Shown here: in pieces, positions 29,972 to 44,694 of the stretch
Layout of the letters: each line of letters starts with the position of its first letter
Numbering within the stretch: position 1 is the stretch's first letter
NCBI RefSeq assembly: GCF_022012475.1
Contig: NZ_JAKLWS010000033.1
Span: 1 to 48,431, forward strand
Direction of reading: 5' to 3'
Origin: Rhodohalobacter sulfatireducens
GTDB lineage: Bacteria > Bacteroidota > Rhodothermia > Balneolales > Balneolaceae
DNA length: 48,431 nucleotides
Notes under the pieces: generated by a model
What the model saw: only the letters and a program-made list of their open reading frames with translations
Database searches by the model: none
Told to the model about the DNA's origin: nothing
Position numbers and translations under genes: made by a program

Positions 29972-30046
29972 TCATAGATTTTTAAACACTAGAGTGCAGG
30001 GTTTTAAACCCTTGGTTGGAATCAATAAACCCCCTGTGTTATTTTT

Positions 30047-30289
30047 TCATATTTTCGAATTCTTAGTAGTCTGCAGATATTTTAAAGGAGCAACTCCCGT
30101 CAAAGAGACAATGCCTTCTGGCATCCGACCGGAGAAGACGATATAGCCGATTCGATCGATCCCTGAGTCCTCAAAAACGAACAAATAATCGTTACTACAG
30201 ATGGCCAGCAGATACAGTTGAGCCGCATCGCCTTTTATCACGCCAGCCAGTATATATAAATACATATTCATTCCGGCCAACATCGACAT
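30047..30289 (-). CDS. short hypothetical ORF, doubtful
   Basis: This 80-codon frame on the minus strand has a protein-like end (YLFVFEDSGIDRIGYIVFSG followed by RMPEGIVSLTGVAPLKYLQ). I do not recognise the family. It has no operon partner. It lies in a 1.15-kb gap that looks like degraded sequence. It may be the C-terminal relic of a larger gene rather than a functional small protein. Confidence 0.25.
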   Translation of the reverse strand: MSMLAGMNMYLYILAGVIKGDAAQLYLLAICSNDYLFVFEDSGIDRIGYIVFSGRMPEGIVSLTGVAPLKYLQTTKNSKI

Positions 30290-30987
30290 GAATATTCAAT
30301 TAATTAGAAATTTTGGCGATGGCTATATGCCAAATATTTTAAAAAATGCACTCATTCAGTACTGTTAACCCGCTATACCCGCATAAAATTTGTAAAACAT
30401 CACTTAAAGTCTCTAAAAATCCGATTTCAATAAATCCGAATTTGCGACAATACTGTGATCTAATATTTAAAATGATGATCAGGTTTTGCAGCATAAACTA
30501 TGTTTGAGTCCCATAGTTGGTTGTGCTCTTGACTGTCGCCCCTGTAACTGTTGTTTCTATAGAGTTCTTCCTAATCAACTCATGATTTCTAATTGAATAG
30601 ATTTGCCCAAAATTATTCAGAATTTCCATACAGCTATTCCACTACCCTTTTAATAAGAATCAATCAATTCTACCAGTAAACCGGTAAATCATTTCTTATT
30701 CCTGATCTATTCGGAAGCGTTCGCGCGGCATCTGCTTGTTGAATATCGTTAAAATGTGCCAGTCAATCCCGGGTACATAAAGAATGGAGCACATTTGGAA
30801 AGATGCTTTGGTTTGAATGAATGGGCCGTCAAGACTTTACCAAAACCAACACTCACTTTTAAAGCAATTGATAAACCTTATTAGGAACAATCTGTGTAGT
30901 TAAAAAATTAGCGGAGGCCTTACAGGTTCAATAGTTGACCAAAGCCAGCCCTTTCGAACTTTTTCTTTGTAACTACACATATGAAGC
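30290..30987. other. gene-poor stretch with a possible coding relic at 30753-30884
   Basis: There is no full gene. On the plus strand a stop-bounded frame at 30753-30884 (43 codons, no ATG start) reads GYIKNGAHLERCFGLNEWAV with KTLPKPTLTF. It looks like a protein tail but I cannot assign it. With the orphan frame at 30047, this suggests an old insertion or deletion scar between the glycan locus and the SET/polyamine genes. No terminator was identified. Confidence 0.3.
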
Positions 30988-32439
30988 TTATTCGCTTCCT
31001 ATAAAAAACTCTAAACCAGATGCCAAAAAGTCCATTTCCTTTGGGTATTGATAGTTTGTTTGACTGCCACCCTCTGTCTTATTAACATCAATCAGAAAGA
31101 GCTTTCCATCCGCTTCAACGTAATCAAAACGGCCATAATCAATATTAAGATCTTCTCTCCACTGTCTTACTTCATCCGGAATTGGAGTTTCTTTATCCGA
31201 AACAGCATTTCCGAATTTTACGATTGGACTAGTCGAAGCTAACCGACCTGCGATTTCTTTATCTCCAAAAAAAACACAATAATTTGTATAAAATAATCCA
31301 TCTTCAGAATTAGCGATAAAGCGTTCGACAACCAGGTTTTTGTTTTCCCAGACACTGTCTGGAACATCTGATATATCTTCAAGGATGGGGTATTCCAAAG
31401 GATTCAGGGTCTCAACTGTATCCCATTTGCGAAAGATGTTTCTGCTCTTCACCCATTTAATAGCTTTGCCAATACGTGTACGTTTTATTATAGAATTCAA
31501 AGTGGAAGAAAGATAGCCGGTCAAGTCTTCACGGTTCAAATATTCATACTCGGCAAGACCCCCATAATTTGCATCTGTTTTGATGATTACGGGCCCTGAA
31601 TAATCGGTGCTTTTTGAAAGTATCAACTCGCTGAATCTTCGTCTCGAAATATCCAGAATTTGCCCATTGATTACCAAAGGGTATTTCTGGATGAGTCCAA
31701 TGTATTCCTTTGGCATTATGGTAAGGTCGATACTAAGAATTACAACATCGGCTTCGGGCATATCATCCGGCCCAATATGGTAAATAACTCGGTGGCCGGC
31801 ATCTCTCCAGCGCAAAGCATAATGATCAACGGAATATTTCATCGGTTTAGACTCTCTATGGCGAAGAATCAATATTGTTTTTCTATCGGGAAGTGGAGTA
31901 CTACCCTTATAAACTTGCTGATTTGAGTGTTCAGCATTCATATTTCCAGCACGTTCAATAGCGCTCAGAACGTGCGTTGGCAAGTTCAATCCATACTGCT
32001 CCTGCCATTCAGGGGCAAGATAGTCACGGTTTGTTATGATTTTCCGGCAACAAGGGGCTCCACAATTACATTTCATCTCAAGAGCAATATCGATATCACA
32101 GGTAGAGTAATCGTATGTTATTTCTTCATCGGGGTGGATATCACGCAGAGCTACAAGAGAATAACTGCCACCCCACCACGTATTCGGATCACACGAGTGA
32201 TTCGCTTCTCGTGAGATATCATCCGGTTCCGGCAAAGAAAAGCGATCAACACCACATTGAAAACCATATTGGTCAAAAGCTTTACGGCGTTTATTATCGA
32301 ATGCCTCAATCTCTTTCCATGAATAGGTTGGCACATCCAATTGCCAAACCATCTCTCCTTTTGAAATCAATTGGTTTGTAAAGAGTCCATTCCCGTGAAT
32401 GGTTCCTTTTTTCCTTATTTCGATTGCCGGATGCAACAT
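30988..32439 (-). CDS. SET-domain / ATP-grasp fusion protein
   Basis: The protein has 483 residues and no signal peptide. The N-terminal SET domain (about 1-135) has GNGLF (17-20), the core ANHSCDPNT (79-87), EEITYDYS (105-112) and a post-SET cysteine cluster CNCGAPCC (124-131). A linker follows, then an ATP-grasp-like domain (about 188-480) with IIKTDANYGG (Lys287), the hinge VVERF (Glu372), RFDYVE (438-442) and DVNKTEGG (Asp451, Asn453) as likely ATP/Mg ligands. It should methylate a protein or amine with AdoMet and ligate a carboxylate to an amine using ATP. A strong GGAAAGGAGGG site precedes the ATG. It starts 24 bp after the SET-SpeD-SpeE gene. The substrate is unknown. Confidence 0.8.
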   Translation of the reverse strand: MLHPAIEIRKKGTIHGNGLFTNQLISKGEMVWQLDVPTYSWKEIEAFDNKRRKAFDQYGFQCGVDRFSLPEPDDISREANHSCDPNTWWGGSYSLVALRDIHPDEEITYDYSTCDIDIALEMKCNCGAPCCRKIITNRDYLAPEWQEQYGLNLPTHVLSAIERAGNMNAEHSNQQVYKGSTPLPDRKTILILRHRESKPMKYSVDHYALRWRDAGHRVIYHIGPDDMPEADVVILSIDLTIMPKEYIGLIQKYPLVINGQILDISRRRFSELILSKSTDYSGPVIIKTDANYGGLAEYEYLNREDLTGYLSSTLNSIIKRTRIGKAIKWVKSRNIFRKWDTVETLNPLEYPILEDISDVPDSVWENKNLVVERFIANSEDGLFYTNYCVFFGDKEIAGRLASTSPIVKFGNAVSDKETPIPDEVRQWREDLNIDYGRFDYVEADGKLFLIDVNKTEGGSQTNYQYPKEMDFLASGLEFFIGSE

Positions 32440-32463
32440 AAGGGACCCTCCTTTCCTGAATTT

Positions 32464-34317
32464 TTACTGCAACTGTTTTGGAAGAACCTGGCTTGCGTGA
32501 TGGATAGCAGGAGACCAGTGCTTTGTACGAATAGCACGCCGATCCCGGAGTACTTTAAGAGTATCGGAATCGGGGCCTGACGGATTCAAATTTTTGGATG
32601 CAACCATGAATATGTACTCGCCGCAATGGTAACTGGGCATCGTAAGTCTAAATCCACTTGTGTATCCCAAATGGGCGCCAATTCGATCCCTCGTTTGCTG
32701 AATAAATTCCACATCCAGTATTGAACCCACCTGGATGGAGGAGATGCCATCACTTTTCAAGGTACGGGAAACAGTTTCATAAAAATCTTCTTCAAAAAGT
32801 ACCTCCGAAGGCCCAATGGCATCATTGCAGTCAATAATGGCTACATCAAATGTATCCTCATACTCTTTGAGCGCTTCACTTGCATCCTCGAAAAGCAGGG
32901 TAACCCGTGGATCTTCGAATGAGCCATTACTCAGGCTAGGGAGATATTTTGCGGCTGCACGAACAAACTGTTCATCAATATCAATCATCACGACTTCTTT
33001 CGGGTTGTGTTTGAGAACTTCACGCAGGGTACCGCCGTCTCCTCCTCCCACAATACAAACTCTTTTTGGCTCGGCATGGGCAAACATAGGTGGATGCACA
33101 AGCATCTCATGGTAGATGTGTTCATCGAAAGTTGAAAGCTGCACAATTCCGTCCAGAACGAGAACGCGCCCGTACACCGGATTGTCAAAAATCAGGCATT
33201 CCTGATACGGTGTACTCTCTTTGAAAATGAGTTCAGTGATATGGAAACCATGATTGATATGCCCATGCCGTCTCCCGGGAACGGTGCCCTCCACAAAGCT
33301 TTCTCTGTCTACTGACAGACCGGAGCGGAGCAATGGCTTATCAGGTGCTGCCGTGATTGAATGTGGAGAGTCAATCCCTCCACGCGCCAGTTTTACAATC
33401 TCTGTGTGTCCGGGTGATAGTGCCTTAACCAAGGTTTCATGTGCTTTCATCGGATAACTATTCCCACATGTGTAAATATCCACACCTGCGTATCCATGTG
33501 AAGGCCACGTGTGAATGGAAATATGGGATTCAGCAAGAAGGGCGATCGCAGTTACTCCCTGGTGTTCAAACGGGTAGGATTCTATAGAAATAATCTTTGC
33601 GTTGGCAGCTTCTGCTCCGTCAATCAAGAGCTGTGTTAGCTGCTTCTCGTCATTCAAAATGTTTGCATCGCAACTCCAGTAATCAATTACGATATGCTGT
33701 CCTCTTGGGTTCATGTCCACGTTTCCTCTTGGTTTCGTTCGTTTATATCTCTCCTGCACAAAAGGAGATGCTTGAAATATCAATTTTTCCTGATACTCGT
33801 CTTCCAAACTGCTAAAGCCACGTATCATACCACGACATGAATCGGCACCGCACTGACACTCAAACGGGGCCCTGTAATTATAGTGCTCCATATCATAATC
33901 GTATGTCAGCTCTTCCCCCTCCGCAATATCCCTTATTGCAATTGTATCGGCAGAGTTGAGCTTAGCTTGATCCAAAAAATTCCAGCGGTCATGTGTGTTC
34001 GGTTCACAAGAATGGTTCATAAAACACCACGGGATTTCAAGTGTATCAGGCACACAACTCGCACTGGCCGGAACGGCAGATATGGCTCTGAAAATTCGTT
34101 TCCTCTCCTCTGTTCCCTCAAGGATAACATCAACAAAATTAGCATCACCAACATAGATGAGAGAAGAAAAGTCTGTAAGAGACAAGATCTCACCCCGAAG
34201 TATTGGTCGATTTGCAACAAGATGCCAGTTATTCTGATCCTCAGTTACAATGCGATACAGAGAAGTCTGTTTTGCAGTCACAATTGTACGAGTCTGGTCA
34301 ATTTGGCTACAATACAT
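32464..34317 (-). CDS. SET domain - S-adenosylmethionine decarboxylase (SpeD) - spermidine synthase (SpeE) fusion
   Basis: The protein has 617 residues and is cytoplasmic. The SET domain (about 15-170) has MNHSCEPNT (100-108), EELTYDYD (135-142) and post-SET cysteines 154, 156 and 161. The SpeD domain (about 205-320) has the self-cleavage site Glu263/Ser264 in AESHISIHTWP, giving a pyruvoyl group, plus His269 and Cys284 (YTCG). The SpeE domain (about 335-575) has VGGGDGGTLREV (423-434), MIDID (444-448) and DCNDAIGP (496-503). All three catalytic sets look intact. The chain could decarboxylate AdoMet, transfer aminopropyl to putrescine or another amine, and methylate a lysine. A short GAGGG site precedes the ATG. 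The downstream SET/ATP-grasp gene is 24 bp away. Confidence 0.9.
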   Translation of the reverse strand: MYCSQIDQTRTIVTAKQTSLYRIVTEDQNNWHLVANRPILRGEILSLTDFSSLIYVGDANFVDVILEGTEERKRIFRAISAVPASASCVPDTLEIPWCFMNHSCEPNTHDRWNFLDQAKLNSADTIAIRDIAEGEELTYDYDMEHYNYRAPFECQCGADSCRGMIRGFSSLEDEYQEKLIFQASPFVQERYKRTKPRGNVDMNPRGQHIVIDYWSCDANILNDEKQLTQLLIDGAEAANAKIISIESYPFEHQGVTAIALLAESHISIHTWPSHGYAGVDIYTCGNSYPMKAHETLVKALSPGHTEIVKLARGGIDSPHSITAAPDKPLLRSGLSVDRESFVEGTVPGRRHGHINHGFHITELIFKESTPYQECLIFDNPVYGRVLVLDGIVQLSTFDEHIYHEMLVHPPMFAHAEPKRVCIVGGGDGGTLREVLKHNPKEVVMIDIDEQFVRAAAKYLPSLSNGSFEDPRVTLLFEDASEALKEYEDTFDVAIIDCNDAIGPSEVLFEEDFYETVSRTLKSDGISSIQVGSILDVEFIQQTRDRIGAHLGYTSGFRLTMPSYHCGEYIFMVASKNLNPSGPDSDTLKVLRDRRAIRTKHWSPAIHHASQVLPKQLQ

Positions 34318-34889
34318 TTTCCCTCAGTCCTTTTGCCAACTATACTTTTAACATACCAATTAATAAAGTTAGTAATCTATAAATTTCACCAACTAAAAGT
34401 CGTTAGGATGATTCTCAAAATGGCAACTCTTATTTAGAGTCTACATATATTTACACTAATCCAGATTTAATAAGTACCCATAAAATCGCTATTAAAAATT
34501 GGTACTCAACCGTACCATATTGTTTGAATAATTACACCATCTCAGTAATGATTTCATAGCAGATCGTTGACTTTGCTCATCTATATAACGTATATGGAAA
34601 GCATATTTGAAGAGGTCGAAAAGTTTAATAAGGATTAAGCTTCTTGTCTTTCAAATTAAGAAAACTGAGATAAGGCTATTAATGTTTTCCATGTAGAATT
34701 ATTACGAACTGTTTCTAATTTGCTAATGTAAAATTACCAATAGAAATGAATCAGTTATACTATCTCTCGATGGATGTAAACCGATATCGGTTAGGGAAAA
34801 TCAAGAAAAAAGAGATGCCACTTCCCGAATCTATAGTCATAAGCATCGTACACCTAGACTAAAACAATGTAGCAGGTTTAAACCAGCTC
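34318..34889. promoter_or_regulatory. upstream region of the SET-SpeD-SpeE operon, with a 14-bp palindrome
   Basis: This is a 572-bp AT-rich gap. A perfect palindrome AACCGATATCGGTT lies at 34779-34792, about 460 bp upstream of the fusion gene and about 90 bp past the end of the sialidase gene. It could be an operator, but its distance from both starts is large. No gene remnant was recognised. Confidence 0.35.
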
Positions 34890-36011
34890 TTACTCCTGTA
34901 ATAATTCTCGCCAGTCACGTCCTTTCGTGACCCATGCCAGGTTAAACCGTGCAATGTTTCCTCCGCCGTCTCCCTCATAAAAAAGGTAAATTTGCCCCTC
35001 GGATGCGGTATTTTCACGTCCTGTGGCCATGGATGAGTAAGCAAATGAGCTCTCCACCACGACCCGCTTTACCGGCCATGTTTCTCCGCCGTCGAAACTG
35101 GCCCAGACCACTCCATTTTTTCGGCCGCTGTCTGATTCGATATTGCTGTAAAGGAGAATATCGTGACCCTCCACCGGTAGTCGTACCAATCCCGCCATAA
35201 GACCATAGTCTGAACTTTGATCTCCATCAGGTAATTCTTTACTTACAGAAAGATCTTCCCACGTCTCTCCGCCATCATCACTCCAGGCGATATGCCGCAT
35301 ACGCGGATTGAAACGATCATCAGAATAGTGGCGACGTGAGTTATAATAAATTCGGCCGTCTGAAAGCTCCACCAATGCAGCTTCGCCGGTACCGTTAACC
35401 GGAAATGGAGAACTGGTATGCCACGTTTTCCCGCCGTCATCGCTGAAGATCGCATTTGTATAGTGAGTTGACCAATGCTCCCGATCATTCGATTCCCCAT
35501 AAAAACGAGATGGACGGATCAGACGGCCTTGATGAGCCCCGGACCGTAGCGTAATGCCATGTTCATTCATGTGCATGGAGGGAATATTGCCATTATCATC
35601 CGGATGAATGACGATCTCTTCCGGCTCCCAGGTGCGTCCCTGGTCCGTACTCCGGTACATTGTTAATGGTGAAGGTGGATGGCCCTCTTCAACAAAGGCT
35701 AAAATATCGCCTGATTGTTCATCAACAACGGTTCCTCCTCCCTGGAATCCCGGCTCTGCTATCACATTTATCTCTCCCCAGGTTTTCCCGCCATCCTCAC
35801 TTCGGCGAACCTGGTAACGAGTACTTCCCCAGGTTGCGATGAGAGTGCCGTCTTTTGCCACTACAATATTAGGGAATCGTTCATCTTCAAAAAGTTGGAG
35901 CACTTCAAAATGTTCCTCTCGATCCCCCAAAAAGGGATTCTCGGCAGGCTGACTGCAAGAGATGAAGTAAAGTAGTATCAGTAATACCAAGAGAGAGTGT
36001 TTGTTTTGCAT
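34890..36011 (-). CDS. sialidase-like lipoprotein with Asp-box repeats
   Basis: The protein has 373 residues with a lipoprotein signal (YFISC, Cys19). It contains five Asp-box motifs of the S-x-D-x-G-x-T-W type: SEDGGKTW (71-78), STDQGRTW (121-128), SDDGGKTW (190-197), SDDGGETW (244-251) and SFDGGETW (about 305-312). This is the six-bladed propeller of exo-alpha-sialidases (GH33-like) and related glycoside hydrolases. An FPNIVVAKDGTLIATW segment after the N-terminus is typical. The sugar removed is not certain; many such proteins in marine bacteria do not act on sialic acid. It is transcribed alone. Confidence 0.8.
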   Translation of the reverse strand: MQNKHSLLVLLILLYFISCSQPAENPFLGDREEHFEVLQLFEDERFPNIVVAKDGTLIATWGSTRYQVRRSEDGGKTWGEINVIAEPGFQGGGTVVDEQSGDILAFVEEGHPPSPLTMYRSTDQGRTWEPEEIVIHPDDNGNIPSMHMNEHGITLRSGAHQGRLIRPSRFYGESNDREHWSTHYTNAIFSDDGGKTWHTSSPFPVNGTGEAALVELSDGRIYYNSRRHYSDDRFNPRMRHIAWSDDGGETWEDLSVSKELPDGDQSSDYGLMAGLVRLPVEGHDILLYSNIESDSGRKNGVVWASFDGGETWPVKRVVVESSFAYSSMATGRENTASEGQIYLFYEGDGGGNIARFNLAWVTKGRDWRELLQE

Positions 36012-36520: not shown

Positions 36521-38968
36521 TCATCTCCATAACCTGTTATTCAAGACGGCTACTCCGTAGCAACCTGCCGCCATCAGCACCACCATTTTGAAACCAACTG
36601 ACATGGACAGCATGACAGCCAGTGGAGCTGCTATCACAGAGGCAAACCCGTTAATCCCCCAAGCCCAGGGTACTAATTTTGGGGATCGACTCTCCAACAC
36701 TCCTATCCCTGATACAAACATCCAGCCCAGCATAAATGTGAGCGGAAACAGCAACACAAGTGTAACAACAAATCGTGTCCAAAGGGAATAACCCACAAAA
36801 AGAGATAAGATCGGATCAAGCAAAAACAGGAATAATATTGCTATTGCCATAACTGACAGACCCGCGTATCGAATCCGGGAAATCGGCGGCCATGGCAGTT
36901 TCTTCTGTATGCTGCTTCCGACTCCTGAAAAGACCAATATGGCCGTCATGACCACCGCAACGCTATAAATAGGATCGCCCATAAAGTTGGTAAACTGCTG
37001 AATGAATACCATCTCCAAAAACATAAATCCAACGCCAATAGCCCCAAAATGAATAAATGTGGGGAGTTTATTTTCAAGATTTGACAGCTTCTGACGCATA
37101 AAGAACAGCGGCAGAAGAATCAGCAGAAATGCTATAAGACTGACCTCTGCAAATGTAACAGCAAGCACCACATACCCAAGCTCGAGGCGCTGAAACCAAT
37201 TCTTTCCGTACACTTCTATGATGCGGTCGATGGACGACCATTTGAAATAATCATTAAAGTAAGGTCGGTTATCGGTGGGAGGTTCAACATCATAGATCCA
37301 GGAATTTAATAACAGATCCGGACTTTCTCCTAAAATTTGTTTGACGGCATGATGGAAGTAAGAATAGTTCTCCCCTTCCGGTCCGCTGATTTTATTAGTT
37401 TGTGTGAGAGTGTCGGATTGAATTCCGGGGTAATGCTCAAAATCCATGAGCTGCTGCCTGCCCGCCTCCAGGTATCGCTGTAATCTTTCATCATCAATGC
37501 CACGTTTCGCAAGGATGGTATTCATTGCCAGGTAATTTCTCGCCTGCAATAAGTGATTAGAAGGATATGCAACTCCTTCATTTTTCAGTGCTTCGGCAAA
37601 CAGAGCAAATAGTTTGATATTATCTCTCGGCGGAGTTTGAATTCCTCTTGTGATGGTTATCAGGCCATCATCCGTAAGATCCAAAAACGCTTCGCGAATT
37701 CCCTCGACAGTGAGTAAAAAATTTTCATTCAGCGATTGCAATCCCTGGGTGCCAGAGGCCATCGATTCTCCGCTGACGAGTTGGATAATGTCATACTTCT
37801 TATGATTTCTTTTTAAAAAGAGACGAGGCTTCAGGTCTACGATTTCGACTTCGGGTTGCAGGTAAATTCCTCCACTTGAATCAGCCAGTTCACCGGTCAT
37901 GAGATCAATGATCTGGGGATTGTTTTGCACGACAGTGATTTTGATGGCCCCAAACTGTTTTGCCAGCCAGATATTGTTACCGGTCGTTTCTCCCAACAGA
38001 AGTACCTTGGGAGCTTCAAAGAGCCGGTACGGAACAGATTGAGGGGTGGATGCCATAATCGAAGCTTGTTCAACACTGTCGATCTTAAAAATACTTCCGG
38101 CAGATTCTCCATCTATAAGTAACGACATTTGCGGAGGAGGTAAATCCGTGGCCTGTAATCCTGCAAAGAGCGTTTGATGAATCTTATCTGACTGGTAAAT
38201 ATCAATCTGAGCACGGGGTCCGTATTGGGTTGAGATCTTTTGGGCATCTCCCTGCTCTTTAAGCTGCTCGAGGTGATAATAGGATTTGTATGGATCCACT
38301 TTTGTGTCGGGTTGAAAGAAGATCATACTGATTCCAATCCCCAAACTTGCAATAATCGAGAGAATGCCGATGGACCTTCTTTTTCCAAAAAAGTATTCTC
38401 GATCAGACAGTAGCTGAGTGACAATAGCTAATGCAGCAACAATTGTAATTTTTACCGGCAACTGGTATGCCGGGAATTGAAACATAAACCAAAGTGCGAT
38501 GAGTGCACCAGCCCCGCTCCCAAAAAGGTTAAAACCATAAATAACCGGTGCATTCTGCTGGAAGTAGCTCAGATAGAACCCAATAACTACTGCACCGAGA
38601 AAAAATGGGATGAATATCAGAATGTTGTACAACATCAGCCATAATTGCTGCTCAGTGCTGAAGAGAACGTATTGGATATCGATCGGAAGTGTTTCTGCAG
38701 CTAAATATGAAACGGGTATACTGACCAAAAACAGGAGTAGGAAAAAGAGAGACCAATTGGAGAAGTGTTTGGCAAGCTTATCATAAAGAAATGTCAAAAA
38801 CGTACCGCTCACACCAAATCCAAGCAAAGCTGTACTGATCACCAAGTAGCTAAAATGATAATAGCTGCTCACAGAGAGTGCCCGCATCAACAATAGCTGC
38901 AATGCGACGAGGACCACCGACAGCAGAAAGACCGTCAACAGGTGAAAACCATTTGTTTCTTTATCCAT
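36521..38968 (-). CDS. membrane protein with a degenerate spermidine-synthase-like domain
   Basis: The protein has 815 residues. About six N-terminal transmembrane helices (residues 8-218) are followed by a soluble Rossmann-type domain (about 225-590) related to spermidine synthases, then a second helical bundle (about 598-815). In the soluble part the AdoMet loop reads LLLGETTGN (323-331) instead of GGGDG, the acidic sugar-binding residue is replaced (VVQNNPQ), and the aspartate pair of the catalytic motif is absent (IIQLVSGES). It is probably not an aminopropyl transferase. It may sense or move polyamine-like ligands. It is the fourth gene with SET/Spe-type relatives in this stretch, but about 2.2 kb from the fusion gene, with a sialidase between. 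Confidence 0.7.
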   Translation of the reverse strand: MDKETNGFHLLTVFLLSVVLVALQLLLMRALSVSSYYHFSYLVISTALLGFGVSGTFLTFLYDKLAKHFSNWSLFFLLLFLVSIPVSYLAAETLPIDIQYVLFSTEQQLWLMLYNILIFIPFFLGAVVIGFYLSYFQQNAPVIYGFNLFGSGAGALIALWFMFQFPAYQLPVKITIVAALAIVTQLLSDREYFFGKRRSIGILSIIASLGIGISMIFFQPDTKVDPYKSYYHLEQLKEQGDAQKISTQYGPRAQIDIYQSDKIHQTLFAGLQATDLPPPQMSLLIDGESAGSIFKIDSVEQASIMASTPQSVPYRLFEAPKVLLLGETTGNNIWLAKQFGAIKITVVQNNPQIIDLMTGELADSSGGIYLQPEVEIVDLKPRLFLKRNHKKYDIIQLVSGESMASGTQGLQSLNENFLLTVEGIREAFLDLTDDGLITITRGIQTPPRDNIKLFALFAEALKNEGVAYPSNHLLQARNYLAMNTILAKRGIDDERLQRYLEAGRQQLMDFEHYPGIQSDTLTQTNKISGPEGENYSYFHHAVKQILGESPDLLLNSWIYDVEPPTDNRPYFNDYFKWSSIDRIIEVYGKNWFQRLELGYVVLAVTFAEVSLIAFLLILLPLFFMRQKLSNLENKLPTFIHFGAIGVGFMFLEMVFIQQFTNFMGDPIYSVAVVMTAILVFSGVGSSIQKKLPWPPISRIRYAGLSVMAIAILFLFLLDPILSLFVGYSLWTRFVVTLVLLFPLTFMLGWMFVSGIGVLESRSPKLVPWAWGINGFASVIAAPLAVMLSMSVGFKMVVLMAAGCYGVAVLNNRLWR

Positions 38969-40912: not shown

Positions 40913-41752
40913 ATGACTCATAAAAAACTCACCTCTCTCCTTTTTACAATTATTATTGGACTTACTACATCATCCATCGCGAATGCACAGTCGTTTTCGG
41001 TGAAACCGAACCTGGCCAGAATGGACAATGATAAAATTGGATATGGTGTAGATCTTGAAGCCGGCTACGAAAAAGATTACACAATCACCTCTGAAACGGG
41101 CTTTCCCAGGTTTATTGAAATTGATCTGAGTGCATCGGCCAGCCTGCTTAACAAGCCTTCACTCAATCCGAATCATCAGCAAGTGGATGTTTACCTGGGT
41201 TATCTGATCTCATTCAAGAAGGCCCAGGATCTTACGCCGGGTGTAGAGCCCGGAGCGAGCCCGGATTACGGAGCACTCGGGTTTGGATTTAATGCCAACT
41301 TTGAGGCCAATCAAACCTTTACAGAGCAGAATTTTGAACAGGGAGCCGAATTGAGATATACCAATTCATCAAAGAAGTTTTTACCCGTCGTTGAACTTTC
41401 CTACCTGTTTGTGATTCCCTACCAGTCTGAATTTCGGGAGGAGTTGAACCAAAGCAGCGACATGTTTCAGCGATTTAATGCACGTGCATTTTGGGCTATT
41501 CGATTTGGTCATTTTCTCCTCAACCCCGATTTCCGCTATTTTCGATCCATAGACCTCGCCCCCGCCCTCGAAGAAAACGGTCTCGATGAGGGATTTCACA
41601 GCGCAATTGAATTAGGATATGTATTCAACCCCAGGGAATCCGGTCCGCTTCAATTCTTTGAATACCTCTACCTTCAATACAACCGTGGACAATTCCCGGT
41701 CTACCTGGAAAACCGAGAAACCATTGAGGCGGGGATTAGTTTTAGGTTTTAA
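40913..41752 (+). CDS. secreted beta-barrel-like protein of unknown function
   Basis: The protein has 279 residues with a clear signal peptide (hydrophobic 8-22, cleavage near ANAQ). The rest alternates polar and hydrophobic residues in strand-length stretches and ends in ETIEAGISFRF, a terminal aromatic pattern (final Phe) typical of outer-membrane beta barrels. I do not recognise a named family. It lies in the same direction as the amidohydrolase, 83 bp after it, separated by a hairpin. Confidence 0.6.
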   Translation: MTHKKLTSLLFTIIIGLTTSSIANAQSFSVKPNLARMDNDKIGYGVDLEAGYEKDYTITSETGFPRFIEIDLSASASLLNKPSLNPNHQQVDVYLGYLISFKKAQDLTPGVEPGASPDYGALGFGFNANFEANQTFTEQNFEQGAELRYTNSSKKFLPVVELSYLFVIPYQSEFREELNQSSDMFQRFNARAFWAIRFGHFLLNPDFRYFRSIDLAPALEENGLDEGFHSAIELGYVFNPRESGPLQFFEYLYLQYNRGQFPVYLENRETIEAGISFRF

Positions 41753-42144: not shown

Positions 42145-43101
42145 TCACCGGTCCAACGGGCTTTTTACTCCTTTCCCGCCTTTATTGAGTACGTGGGTGT
42201 AGATCATAGTAGTCTTGACGCTTTTGTGCCCGAGTAGTTCTTGTACGGTTCTGATGTCGTAACCATTTTTTAGAAGATGTGTTGCAAAAGAATGGCGAAA
42301 TGTATGAGGTGTAACATGCTTTTGAATCGAATACTTCGATAAAGCCTTTTTAAGTGCCCGTCTAACCGTTCTTGGAGAAATATGATAGCGATGCCGAACT
42401 CCTGACCTTGGATCAACTCTTCTTACTTTTGATGGAAAAAGATATTGCCATTTCAGTTCTTTAGCCGCATTTGGATATTTTCTGGATAATGCTTTAGGCA
42501 ATATCGTTTTACCAAATCCTTTTTCAAGATCCATCTTCTGTAGATGCTTTACTTTTAAAATCTGGGTTTTTAGACTTTCTTTTACTAATTCTGGTAACAT
42601 TGTAACCCTGTCTTTCAAGCCTTTTCCATTTCGTACAATAATCTGGTTTAAACCAAAATCGATATCCAATATTCGAAGCCCAAGAGCCTCTGATATTCTT
42701 AAACCAGATCCATAAAGTAAACTTATTATTAAATTTTCTACCCCTTCTATGTATTCAATAATTGTCAGCGCTTCTTTCTCAGACAAAACAACAGGTAAAT
42801 GTTTAGGTCTTCTTGCTCTCTTAAAATTTTTGAGTCTTTCGAGTGGGGTCTCAAGGATATTCTTATACAAAAATATAATAGCAGACAGTGCCTGGTTTTG
42901 AGTGGACGCAGCTACATTTGCCTCATTTGCCAAATAGGTAAGAAAAGCAGTAACATCTTTCTCGTTGAGTTTCTTCGGATGCGTTGTATCATGATAACGA
43001 ATATAACGCACTACCCAACGCACGTAATTCTTCTCTGTACTGTAACTATAATTTCGCCTTCGAATTTCTTCTTTAAGTCTTGTAAGTAATTTTTTGGGCA
43101 T
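42145..43101 (-). CDS. intI: integron integrase (tyrosine recombinase)
   Basis: The protein has 318 residues. Tyrosine-recombinase catalytic residues are present: Arg135 (GSGLRISEAL), Lys160, His266-x-x-Arg269 (HTFRH), His292 (LLGHKSVKTT) and Tyr301 (MIYTHV). The additional patch of about 202-224 (PKALSRKYPNAAKELKWQYL followed by FPS), inserted before the second catalytic box, is diagnostic of IntI enzymes rather than XerC/D. The C-terminus VLNKGGKGVKSPLD is also typical. It catalyses cassette insertion and excision at attI and attC. It is transcribed away from the array, as is usual. All expected residues are intact, so the enzyme is probably functional. Confidence 0.95.
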   Translation of the reverse strand: MPKKLLTRLKEEIRRRNYSYSTEKNYVRWVVRYIRYHDTTHPKKLNEKDVTAFLTYLANEANVAASTQNQALSAIIFLYKNILETPLERLKNFKRARRPKHLPVVLSEKEALTIIEYIEGVENLIISLLYGSGLRISEALGLRILDIDFGLNQIIVRNGKGLKDRVTMLPELVKESLKTQILKVKHLQKMDLEKGFGKTILPKALSRKYPNAAKELKWQYLFPSKVRRVDPRSGVRHRYHISPRTVRRALKKALSKYSIQKHVTPHTFRHSFATHLLKNGYDIRTVQELLGHKSVKTTMIYTHVLNKGGKGVKSPLDR

Positions 43102-43348: not shown

Positions 43349-43834
43349 TTACTTTTTGGCCTCGGCCCCACCAATGGAGGCCAGGTAGATGTCCCGCCCG
43401 TCTTGAAGTTGAGTCTGCCCATACTCAATTAATTTCTTGAGTTTCCCTAAATTCTCCGCTACAGCTCGGCGAATGCGTCCTACAACAAAGCGTTCAAGTA
43501 TCCCAGGGTACCCTGTGCGGAGCGTCATCTCGTCAATCAGTCGTGTACCGTTAGCGGTAGCCTCAAAACGTAGATGACGTTCGAACATAGGTGAACTGCC
43601 AGAGATAGTCTTGATGATCAGGCTTTGCCCCAGCTCGTAATGGATTATTTCATAACGCTGGCTGTCCGTTTTCCGTGTTTGGTAATAGCGTACGCCACGT
43701 TCAGGTCCGTTTCCATTTTCCTGGGTCACCTTTGTCACAAAATAGTTCCATTTTGGCATATTCCTCATATCGGCCACAAACTCAAACACGTCGTTGATTG
43801 ACGCCTGAATTTCAATTTCATTTTGAAATTTCAT
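43349..43834 (-). CDS. SRPBCC-family (START-like) lipid/polyketide-binding protein
   Basis: The protein has 161 residues. The start MKFQNEIEIQASINDVFEFV and MPKWNYFV, with later LRFEATANGTRLIDEMTL, match polyketide-cyclase/dehydrase SRPBCC proteins that bind hydrophobic ligands. Its ATG overlaps the stop of the preceding MBL-fold gene by four bases (ATGA), so the two are co-translated. It is the last gene of the reversed set TetR-MBL-SRPBCC in cassette 1. The ligand is unknown. Confidence 0.78.
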   Translation of the reverse strand: MKFQNEIEIQASINDVFEFVADMRNMPKWNYFVTKVTQENGNGPERGVRYYQTRKTDSQRYEIIHYELGQSLIIKTISGSSPMFERHLRFEATANGTRLIDEMTLRTGYPGILERFVVGRIRRAVAENLGKLKKLIEYGQTQLQDGRDIYLASIGGAEAKK

Positions 43835-44694
43835 ACTGCTTGCGCCTCCAATTCAAGGTCCTTGTTGATCGGAATGCGATTTTCCAGCCGCTCCTTCGCA
43901 CCTGGATCGTGACTTGGCAAATAAACAGTGTGATGCTGCTCAGCGTATTTCAGAATCTTTCTATGGGTCTCTTGTTGAACGTCCGGATCGGCTCCTATCC
44001 CATCAGCTTTTTGCTCAATAAGTAATTCTTCGGTGTACGAGGCATCTCCTGCGAATAGGATAGACATAAGATCATCTTCAACCAGAATCACCGACAGATG
44101 GCCCGGGCTATGTCCGGGGGTCGGTACAAGATGGATATCCCCTGCTTGAGTGAGTGTATGATGACCGGTAAACGGCCCAAATGGTTTCTGGCTATCAAAA
44201 TCAACGAATCGTGGTTTAAACCAGTCGGGCCAGCGTTGATTGAGATAACCATTCATTCGTCCCTTTATCCCAGCGGCCATTTCCCACTCTTTAAATGAGA
44301 CAACAAACTCGGCATTGGGGAAATGATGCAGTCCGCCATCATGATCTTGGTGCAGATGGGTCAGCACAACCCAGCGCACGTCGTTTGGCGACAAACCGAG
44401 TTGCCTTAGCTGGGAACCAACTTCCTGTTCTGGTGTCATTTTGAATTTGGCAGCACGTTGCACAAGGGGCATGAACGGTGGGAACCATATACGCTTATTG
44501 GCGTCCACCGGGATGCCGGTGTCGATAACAATGAGTCCTTCCGGGTGTTCTATCACCCACACATAAATGGGCAGCCATTCGGTAAATTCGCTGTCAAACA
44601 GAGTGTTTTTAAAACGCTTGAGACCATTACCCCGCCCAATGCGCCAATTTTTTGTGATTTTTACTTTGCCGGTTTCTATCGCATGAATTTTCAT
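43831..44694 (-). CDS. metallo-beta-lactamase-fold hydrolase, lactonase-like
   Basis: The protein has 287 residues. The metal motif HxHxDH reads THLHQDHDG, with later VPTPGHSPGHLS and FAGDASYTEE. The overall plan (GTGIPVDANKR-type entry, single domain) resembles N-acyl-homoserine lactonases and related lactone or ester hydrolases rather than beta-lactamases. A strong AGGAGGAG site lies 6 bases before the ATG, unlike most genes in the window, which fits acquisition by a cassette. It follows the TetR gene by 20 bp. A TetR-controlled lactone or ester detoxification is plausible but unproven. Confidence 0.8.
   Translation of the reverse strand: MKIHAIETGKVKITKNWRIGRGNGLKRFKNTLFDSEFTEWLPIYVWVIEHPEGLIVIDTGIPVDANKRIWFPPFMPLVQRAAKFKMTPEQEVGSQLRQLGLSPNDVRWVVLTHLHQDHDGGLHHFPNAEFVVSFKEWEMAAGIKGRMNGYLNQRWPDWFKPRFVDFDSQKPFGPFTGHHTLTQAGDIHLVPTPGHSPGHLSVILVEDDLMSILFAGDASYTEELLIEQKADGIGADPDVQQETHRKILKYAEQHHTVYLPSHDPGAKERLENRIPINKDLELEAQAV

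Follow-up and report, generated by a model that had tools for sequence, protein, structure and literature searches.

What might a bacterial protein do that carries a SET domain in front of SpeD and SpeE? The question is raised by a gene on a 48,431-nucleotide stretch of Rhodohalobacter sulfatireducens DNA (contig NZ_JAKLWS010000033.1, positions 1 to 48,431; hereafter the window), whose open reading frame (ORF) runs from an ATG without internal stops (translation of 34317..32464, minus strand) and encodes a SET domain (SET1), an S-adenosylmethionine (AdoMet) decarboxylase (AdoMetDC; SpeD) and an aminopropyltransferase (SpeE), followed by a second gene joining another SET domain (SET2) to a probable ATP-grasp ligase (AG; Table 1). 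The SET1-SpeD-SpeE fusion is rare but real, and recurrent in bacteria. We tentatively propose, at just short of an even chance, that the two genes would form an accessory, horizontally spread cassette making N-methylated aminopropyl polyamines, perhaps conjugated by AG, in the manner proposed for fusion proteins of diatoms.

The domain content of the fusion is supported by profile matches along the whole chain. Pfam assigns SET to amino acids (aa) 31-141 (46.4 bits, cut-off 22.4), AdoMet_dc to aa 208-313 (118.8 bits, cut-off 25), Spermine_synt_N to aa 356-395 (40.2 bits, cut-off 22.1) and Spermine_synth to aa 399-576 (167.1 bits, cut-off 22.9), and the SpeD part passes the NCBIfam adenosylmethionine decarboxylase model TIGR03330 (121.9 bits, cut-off 75.65). 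SpeE narrowly misses the equivalog models TIGR00417 (240.2 against 249.55) and NF002010 (258.9 against 260); lying just under both of these cut-offs while passing those of Pfam, it fits a divergent subfamily. By PDB matching, the closest solved structures to the SpeE part are ordinary spermidine synthases, and the best 50 Foldseek matches listed are all spermidine synthases or aminopropyltransferases. SET1 was poorly modelled by AlphaFold2 (block predicted local distance difference test scores, pLDDT, of 23-60 in the fusion model). The motifs named by an earlier note on this DNA are all found in the translation: NHSCEPNT, TYDYD and the post-SET CQCGADSC in SET1, an intact self-cleavage Ser264 within AESHISIHTWP in SpeD, and intact GGGDGG (at 424) and DCNDAIGP (at 496) in SpeE. 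An assembly artefact or chance ORF was considered and is ruled out by full-length homologues in contigs of metagenome-assembled genomes (MAGs) of other phyla, since both a Planctomycetales and a Flavobacteriales MAG contig carry one.

To gauge how widespread the fusion is, we searched genome samples at several depths. At E ≤ 1e-3 the host genome holds no other SpeD or SpeE, and at E ≤ 1e-55 the fusion is matched in one of 92 genomes of the family, the host's own. Widening the search to the phylum sample gave a match at E ≤ 1e-10 in 94 of 394 genomes; among the matches listed there, only the window's own covers the whole protein, the others being SpeE, SpeD or, in two, SET alone. Profile searches at E ≤ 1e-70 matched 5 of 294, 1 of 288 and 7 of 247 genomes in the phyla of the genomes of L032, L035 and L036, respectively, and, among relatives of the L033 and L032 genomes, 16 of 130 and 2 of 127, respectively; these counts include the start genomes and are not additive, as the samples overlap. 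Outside the start genomes and genome G1418, the listed matches start at profile position 172 at the earliest and thus comprise SpeD and SpeE, short of SET1; the two are fused or adjacent, in several cases as two separate frames. A contig scan, of limited recall owing to its reliance on exact 8-residue patterns, returned 49 loci, five of which (L032-L036; the MAG taxon labels are possibly wrong) fall into one SET-linked clade, while SpeD-SpeE fusions without SET recur in other genomes (e.g., L003-L009, L127 and L144-L146). The viral collection contained no relative of SET2-AG and one SpeE-like match to the fusion, and no plasmid record covers 80% of the fusion or of SET2-AG.

In the SpeE tree, the six sequences of the SET-linked clade (window and L032-L036) occupy one side of a long-stemmed branch against 79 others (Shimodaira-Hasegawa-like approximate likelihood-ratio support 100). 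They are joined, with support of 100, by the last SpeE of L160, a locus in G1418, which is one of the relatives sampled around L032's genome; a divergent SpeE of L160 lies outside the clade on a long branch and its placement is unsure. Labelled members belong to Planctomycetota, Bacteroidota, Verrucomicrobiota and Thermodesulfobacteriota, and since the SpeEs of the host's own family in the tree lie far from the clade, the fusion gene was probably acquired by transfer. After Tyr563, which we take to be an acceptor-side residue, the SET-linked SpeEs carry H564, C565, E567 and Y568, as opposed to mostly P, S/A/T/G, M/L and W in 75 others; these clade-specific residues suggest a changed acceptor. 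A tree of 26 chosen SET rows separates SET1, SET2 and the SET of SpeD-SET fusions into three supported groups. Because a single common origin of these groups is not rejected (approximately unbiased test, p-AU 0.163), we do not claim independent recruitment. The SpeD tree has long branches, and a single clade of SET-linked SpeDs is likewise not rejected (p-AU 0.606).

The residues expected of working SpeD and SpeE enzymes are retained. In the Thermotoga maritima AdoMetDC, S63, H68 and C83 are required for self-cleavage and participate in catalysis (PMC10407285); the aligned residues S264, H269 and C284 are kept in all five aligned SpeDs of the clade (window and L032-L035). SpeD would self-cleave before Ser264, giving a chain of SET plus SpeD-beta and a chain of SpeD-alpha plus SpeE. 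Because this cleavage would divide the chain, more than one polypeptide probably makes up the mature enzyme, and the single protein described in the earlier note holds for the ORF rather than for the mature product. Neofunctionalised SpeD homologues exist (PMC10407285), and this SpeD carries a proline, that of HTWP, which may be the diagnostic one of that study. We considered arginine or ornithine decarboxylation; the processing residues would be expected whichever of the three substrates is used and do not discriminate among them. In SpeE, the Gly-loop D427 and catalytic D496 are invariant in six of six clade rows, D499 is found in five (Gly in L036), and Y402, D496 and Y563, residues of small-amine enzymes, are kept. 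The Gly-loop aspartate of aminopropyltransferases excludes the carboxyl group of AdoMet for lack of space (PMC1282579), so that SpeE, with D427 invariant, should use decarboxylated AdoMet.

The picture for SET1 is mixed, as N101, H102, Y141, C104, C154, C156 and C161 are invariant in the three rows of alignment A6 and GxG is missing, with NW[HR][IL]VANR in its place in all three rows covering it. GxG is the AdoMet-binding motif typical of the SET family, and its loop sits near the amino-acid end of AdoMet. We take Y141 to be the catalytic tyrosine of the motif, and C104 presumably completes a zinc site with C154, C156 and C161. Known roles of the Asn, His and Tyr of SET domains are given in PMC1282579.

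The second gene, which the earlier note does not mention, begins 24 bp downstream of the fusion gene, behind a strong Shine-Dalgarno-like AGGAAAGGAGGG, and the two look like one small operon. Predicted promoter and terminator sites are about as numerous as in shuffled sequence, and positions 30000-36000 of the window gave no Rfam match. SET2 (Pfam SET at aa 16-111, 47.4 bits; PDB match to KMT2A over aa 11-135) has its GxG as G[NYH]G in three of three alignment rows. C-terminal to it lies the AG part of about 295 aa, whose ATP-grasp-like motifs (VIIKT.ANYGG, YGRFDY and LIDVNKTEGG, which we read as such) indicate that it is probably an ATP-grasp ligase. A profile of eight AG homologues gave a single PDB match, which is weak and to the ATP-grasp ligase AMdnB (7m4s; E = 0.15), and the L032 homologue, one of six AGs scanned, weakly matches an ATP-grasp Pfam family (E = 0.056). 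The AlphaFold2 model of SET2-AG is of very low confidence (pLDDT 34). Other SET domains joined to an ATP-grasp enzyme, as is probable for SET2-AG, occur in the host's phylum (L119, L088, L092 and L098), differing in that the ATP-grasp part is a Pfam-recognised Dala_Dala_lig_C and precedes SET. At L119:1541-7292 such a D-Ala-D-Ala-ligase-type ATP-grasp-SET protein stands beside FGase, MATCAP and GSH-S_ATP proteins. L117:5653-6869 carries two tandem SET genes with a 4-bp overlap, and L118 has a comparable pair. A host AG paralogue abuts a DDAH-like gene (PF19420, E = 4.1e-6; L112:5243-7048), and at L116:4632-7126 a GNAT-BKACE fusion stands directly before an AG homologue, with sialic-acid-type synthesis-like genes nearby (by eye).

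Table 1. Coordinates of the cassette and of related loci (window positions unless a locus is named).
Feature	Position	Strand	Basis or remark
SET1-SpeD-SpeE fusion CDS, 617 aa	32464..34317	-	ORF, Pfam, NCBIfam
SET1 domain, aa 31-141; N101-H102 and Y141 present, GxG absent	33895..34227	-	Pfam PF00856, alignments
Post-SET Cys C154, C156, C161	33832..33858	-	invariant in 3/3 rows of alignment A6
SpeD, class 1b AdoMetDC, aa 208-313	33379..33696	-	Pfam PF02675, NCBIfam TIGR03330
Ser264, predicted site of self-cleavage and of pyruvoyl formation (= T. maritima S63)	33526..33528	-	alignment
SpeE aminopropyltransferase, aa 356-614; D427 and D496 intact	32476..33252	-	Pfam, alignment, fold match to spermidine synthases
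24-bp intergenic gap with Shine-Dalgarno-like AGGAAAGGAGGG before next ATG	32440..32463	-	sequence
SET2 fused to probable ATP-grasp ligase (AG), CDS 483 aa	30988..32439	-	ORF, Pfam, PDB match
SET2 and post-SET, aa 16-135; GxG, NHSCDPN, TYDYS, CxC..C all present	32035..32394	-	Pfam, PDB
AG, probable ATP-grasp ligase, aa 186-481	30997..31884	-	motifs VIIKT.ANYGG, YGRFDY, LIDVNKTEGG
L032, Planctomycetales MAG			full-length fusion homologue, best segment 61% identical
L033, Flavobacteriales MAG			full-length fusion homologue, best segment 58% identical
L034, uncultured bacterium			SpeD-SpeE; no SET in upstream 462 bp to contig end
L035, Verrucomicrobiales			SET1 cut by contig end
L036, Desulfuromonas			SpeE
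Paired SpeD-SET fusions	L160:11608-12546 and L160:9537-10505		complementary SpeD-site losses
Host speA-like, speB and DHS-like genes	L164:7483-10713		stand where G065, G262 and G119 carry speD and speE

A recurrence of the architecture with the same neighbours, which the earlier note had raised, is seen in other genomes, with AG and/or SET2 close by. L033 has three consecutive genes, SET1-SpeD-SpeE, SET2 and AG; L032 has SET1-SpeD-SpeE with a convergent AG, SET2 not being found in its genome, which has on another contig (L137) a short SET that looks unrelated; and in L036 SpeE is followed by SET2. The parts are rearranged in L160, which encodes on one strand and in one run AG (48% identical to that of the window), a SpeD-SET fusion, the divergent SpeE, a second SpeD-SET fusion and the last SpeE (65% identical). 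Both SpeD-SET fusions have a SET with GxG. The first SpeD keeps S63 and C83 and has Tyr for H68; in the second, KAQ replaces ESH and the Ser is thereby lost, the His is retained and the Cys is displaced by one column. Our guess is that the pair would form a heteromer of an active and a prozyme-like subunit, complementing each other at a shared dimer site. A SET lies in the locus of six of the seven clade loci (window, L032, L033, L035, L036 and L160; not L034) and AG in that of four (window, L032, L033 and L160), as against 0/44 for SET and 0/44 for AG in a profile search of the other scan loci (median locus 12.6 kb). Clade members supplied the sequences for both profiles, supplemented for AG by paralogues from the host and by one further genome, and the SET count is biased in that part of the clade was found via SET patterns; L034, L036 and L160 were matched via SpeD or SpeE. 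Polysaccharide-synthesis-like genes occur near three clade loci, namely a glycosyltransferase family 2 (GT2) match over its cut-off at L032, a TupA-like ATP-grasp match over cut-off with glycosyltransferase-like genes below curated cut-offs at L036, and a sub-threshold GT2 match at L160, which makes a surface polysaccharide one possible acceptor.

In order to place this combination of parts, we turned to known systems. Diatoms have AdoMetDC-aminopropyltransferase fusions, some with a histone N-methyltransferase domain that one review calls eukaryotic, and these are proposed to make and N-methylate long-chain polyamines (PMC3820600, PMC12029483); S-adenosylmethionine decarboxylase-aminopropyltransferase (SAMDC-APT) fusions of diatoms also feature in PMC6356823. 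As in the window protein, three enzymatic parts (AdoMetDC, aminopropyltransferase and SET) share one chain, a likeness at the level of domain content. Unlike the diatom fusions, the window protein is bacterial, has its SET N-terminal and is accompanied by SET2 and a probable ATP-grasp ligase. A signal peptide is reported for the diatom long-chain-polyamine fusions; in the window protein, no N-terminal hydrophobic leader is visible by eye. The reviews cite Michael 2011 (FEBS Lett 585:2627), whose title speaks of bacterially derived fusions and whose abstract reportedly mentions fusion sets in alternative order and dead-AdoMetDC versions, to which L160 offers a counterpart. The earlier note had called the addition of SET unusual, which is borne out among the bacteria surveyed and gives way to a combination already in print for diatoms. 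Bacterial SpeD-SpeE (SAMDC-APT) fusions have the order of the window protein, SpeD then SpeE, but are without SET, and their SpeEs in the tree, L034 excepted, lie outside the SET-linked clade. A precedent for the proposed role of SET is BurB (PDB 9l4t; E = 5.1e-9 to the SET1 profile), a bacterial SET domain that methylates methionine (PMC12542666), so that small molecules are within the reach of bacterial SET domains; it differs as a stand-alone tetrameric methionine S-methyltransferase of 172 aa, and its similarity to SET1 is limited. No description of a bacterial SET-SpeD-SpeE protein was found in the open literature, which omits most subscription papers, and searches there that paired SET domains with AdoMetDC, with spermidine synthase or with ATP-grasp returned no such protein; the words fusion, decarboxylase, spermidine, polyamine and ATP-grasp are absent from a review of bacterial SET proteins (PMC3980110).

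In the mechanism that we propose, self-cleaved SpeD would convert AdoMet to decarboxylated AdoMet, which SpeE would use to aminopropylate a diamine or triamine, for instance putrescine or homospermidine. The SET domains would methylate amine nitrogens of the product, a free primary amine resembling the end of lysine and entering the lysine channel, and AG may, as the weakest step, join the product to a carboxylate. Physical linkage of the parts would let decarboxylated AdoMet and polyamine pass between the active sites. Several observations weigh against this proposal. Without GxG, SET1 may have no activity; protein-lysine methyltransferases (KMT2, ASH1L) are better matches to both SETs than BurB is; and products longer than a triamine are without support. 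The window AG has no Pfam match at E ≤ 5, the sole weak Pfam match of the L114 AG is to a non-ATP-grasp family (E = 0.3), and the host genome has three further AG paralogues, near which no SET, SpeD or SpeE was seen in 13-kb stretches. Among the clade loci, L036 has SpeE and SET2 with neither SpeD nor AG found, the L034 locus is without SET or AG and its MAG without a SET2-AG match, and no SET2 or AG was found in the MAG of L035.

Three other explanations have to be weighed. SET1 might be non-catalytic or regulatory, leaving a plain bifunctional spermidine or norspermidine synthase like known SpeD-SpeE fusions, one of which, from a marine bacterium, yielded norspermidine in E. coli (Green et al., per PMC6356823). 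The lack of GxG, the recurrence of SET-free fusions and the presence of one (L034) within the clade itself would fit, but we consider this explanation rather unlikely: the Asn-His pair, the catalytic tyrosine and the four zinc-type cysteines are invariant in the A6 rows, the adjoining SET2 carries all motifs, and two further GxG-bearing SETs are fused to SpeD in L160. It is more doubtful still that the SETs methylate lysines of a protein, be it one of the host's or a secreted one, their linkage to SpeD and SpeE merely balancing the AdoMet pool. No obvious substrate protein was noticed in the locus, and SET, SpeD, SpeE and AG recur together in rearranged form, beyond the needs of pool sharing, which outweighs for us the common use of AdoMet and the fact that, in the PDB, histone-lysine methyltransferases match both SETs best. 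Least probable is a protein-bound product, with aminopropyl groups or a polyamine built on or moved to a protein or peptide and methylated, as has been proposed for silaffins, or, as the earlier note suggested, with SET1 aminopropylating lysine, the polyamine attachment site of silaffin, by means of decarboxylated AdoMet: SET1 is without the GxG loop near the amino-acid end of AdoMet and L160 has a dead-SpeD fusion as reported for the diatom set, but no Lys-rich substrate gene was noticed in the locus and the SpeE clade retains the small-amine enzyme residues. Diatom silaffin does bear conjugated long-chain polyamines (PMC6356823); lysine aminopropylation by SET1 has no direct support here, the absence of GxG leaving room for it.

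Returning to a cassette for methylated polyamines, we compared the polyamine genes of the host with those of its relatives. In the same-family genome G065, a dehydrogenase-like gene (by eye) is followed by two genes on the opposite strand, those for SpeD and for a pyruvoyl arginine decarboxylase, and SpeE is encoded a few genes further along; the same-genus genome G262 shows this gene order minus the additional genes (the middle gene being identified by likeness), and G119, also of the genus, has SpeD and SpeE. At the matching place, set by the dehydrogenase-like gene and the genes beyond, the host carries an arginine-decarboxylase-like protein, agmatinase and a deoxyhypusine synthase (DHS)-like protein, one polyamine route thus standing in for another at a single chromosomal location (L164). 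As DHS homologues (SpeY) produce homospermidine in bacteria (PMC9992855), the host probably makes putrescine and homospermidine without SpeD/SpeE. Given this predicted homospermidine route, the cassette looks accessory, and the idea that the fusion replaces a lost spermidine synthesis is weakened.

Within the window, the cassette lies near a region with SusC/SusD, sulfatase and GH95 genes, and no glycosyltransferase was found among the scanned genes near it, part of the ORFs having been scanned. An integron integrase is encoded at 42145..43101 on the minus strand (TIGR02249, 437.5 bits, cut-off 265). To the right of it lie several small ORFs, a metallo-beta-lactamase-fold protein is encoded at 43834-44694, and a chromosomal integron may start at this integrase. 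Proteins of 815 aa (36521..38968, minus strand) and 279 aa (40913..41752, plus strand) have no Pfam match; the C-terminus of the former has a far sub-threshold NCBIfam match to StyB (22 bits, cut-off 200).

The biosynthesis of N-methylated long-chain polyamines in diatoms was an open question as of a 2018 review, which describes the functions of the diatom fusion genes as still to be characterised (PMC6356823). We raise, as a long shot, the idea that bacteria own a complete, mobile toolkit of SET, AdoMetDC, aminopropyltransferase and AG parts for N-methylated polyamines, possibly long-chain and conjugated ones, and that diatoms acquired their silica-polyamine machinery from such a cassette with SET already in place, instead of recruiting a eukaryotic histone methyltransferase on their own; if true, the SET addition so far described as eukaryotic would have a bacterial source. 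The proposed function of the cassette, if true, would provide bacterial SET domains with a role in polyamine metabolism and would indicate a probable new ATP-grasp ligase family. As a compact two-gene bacterial cassette with diatom-like parts, it is amenable to direct expression and assay in E. coli.

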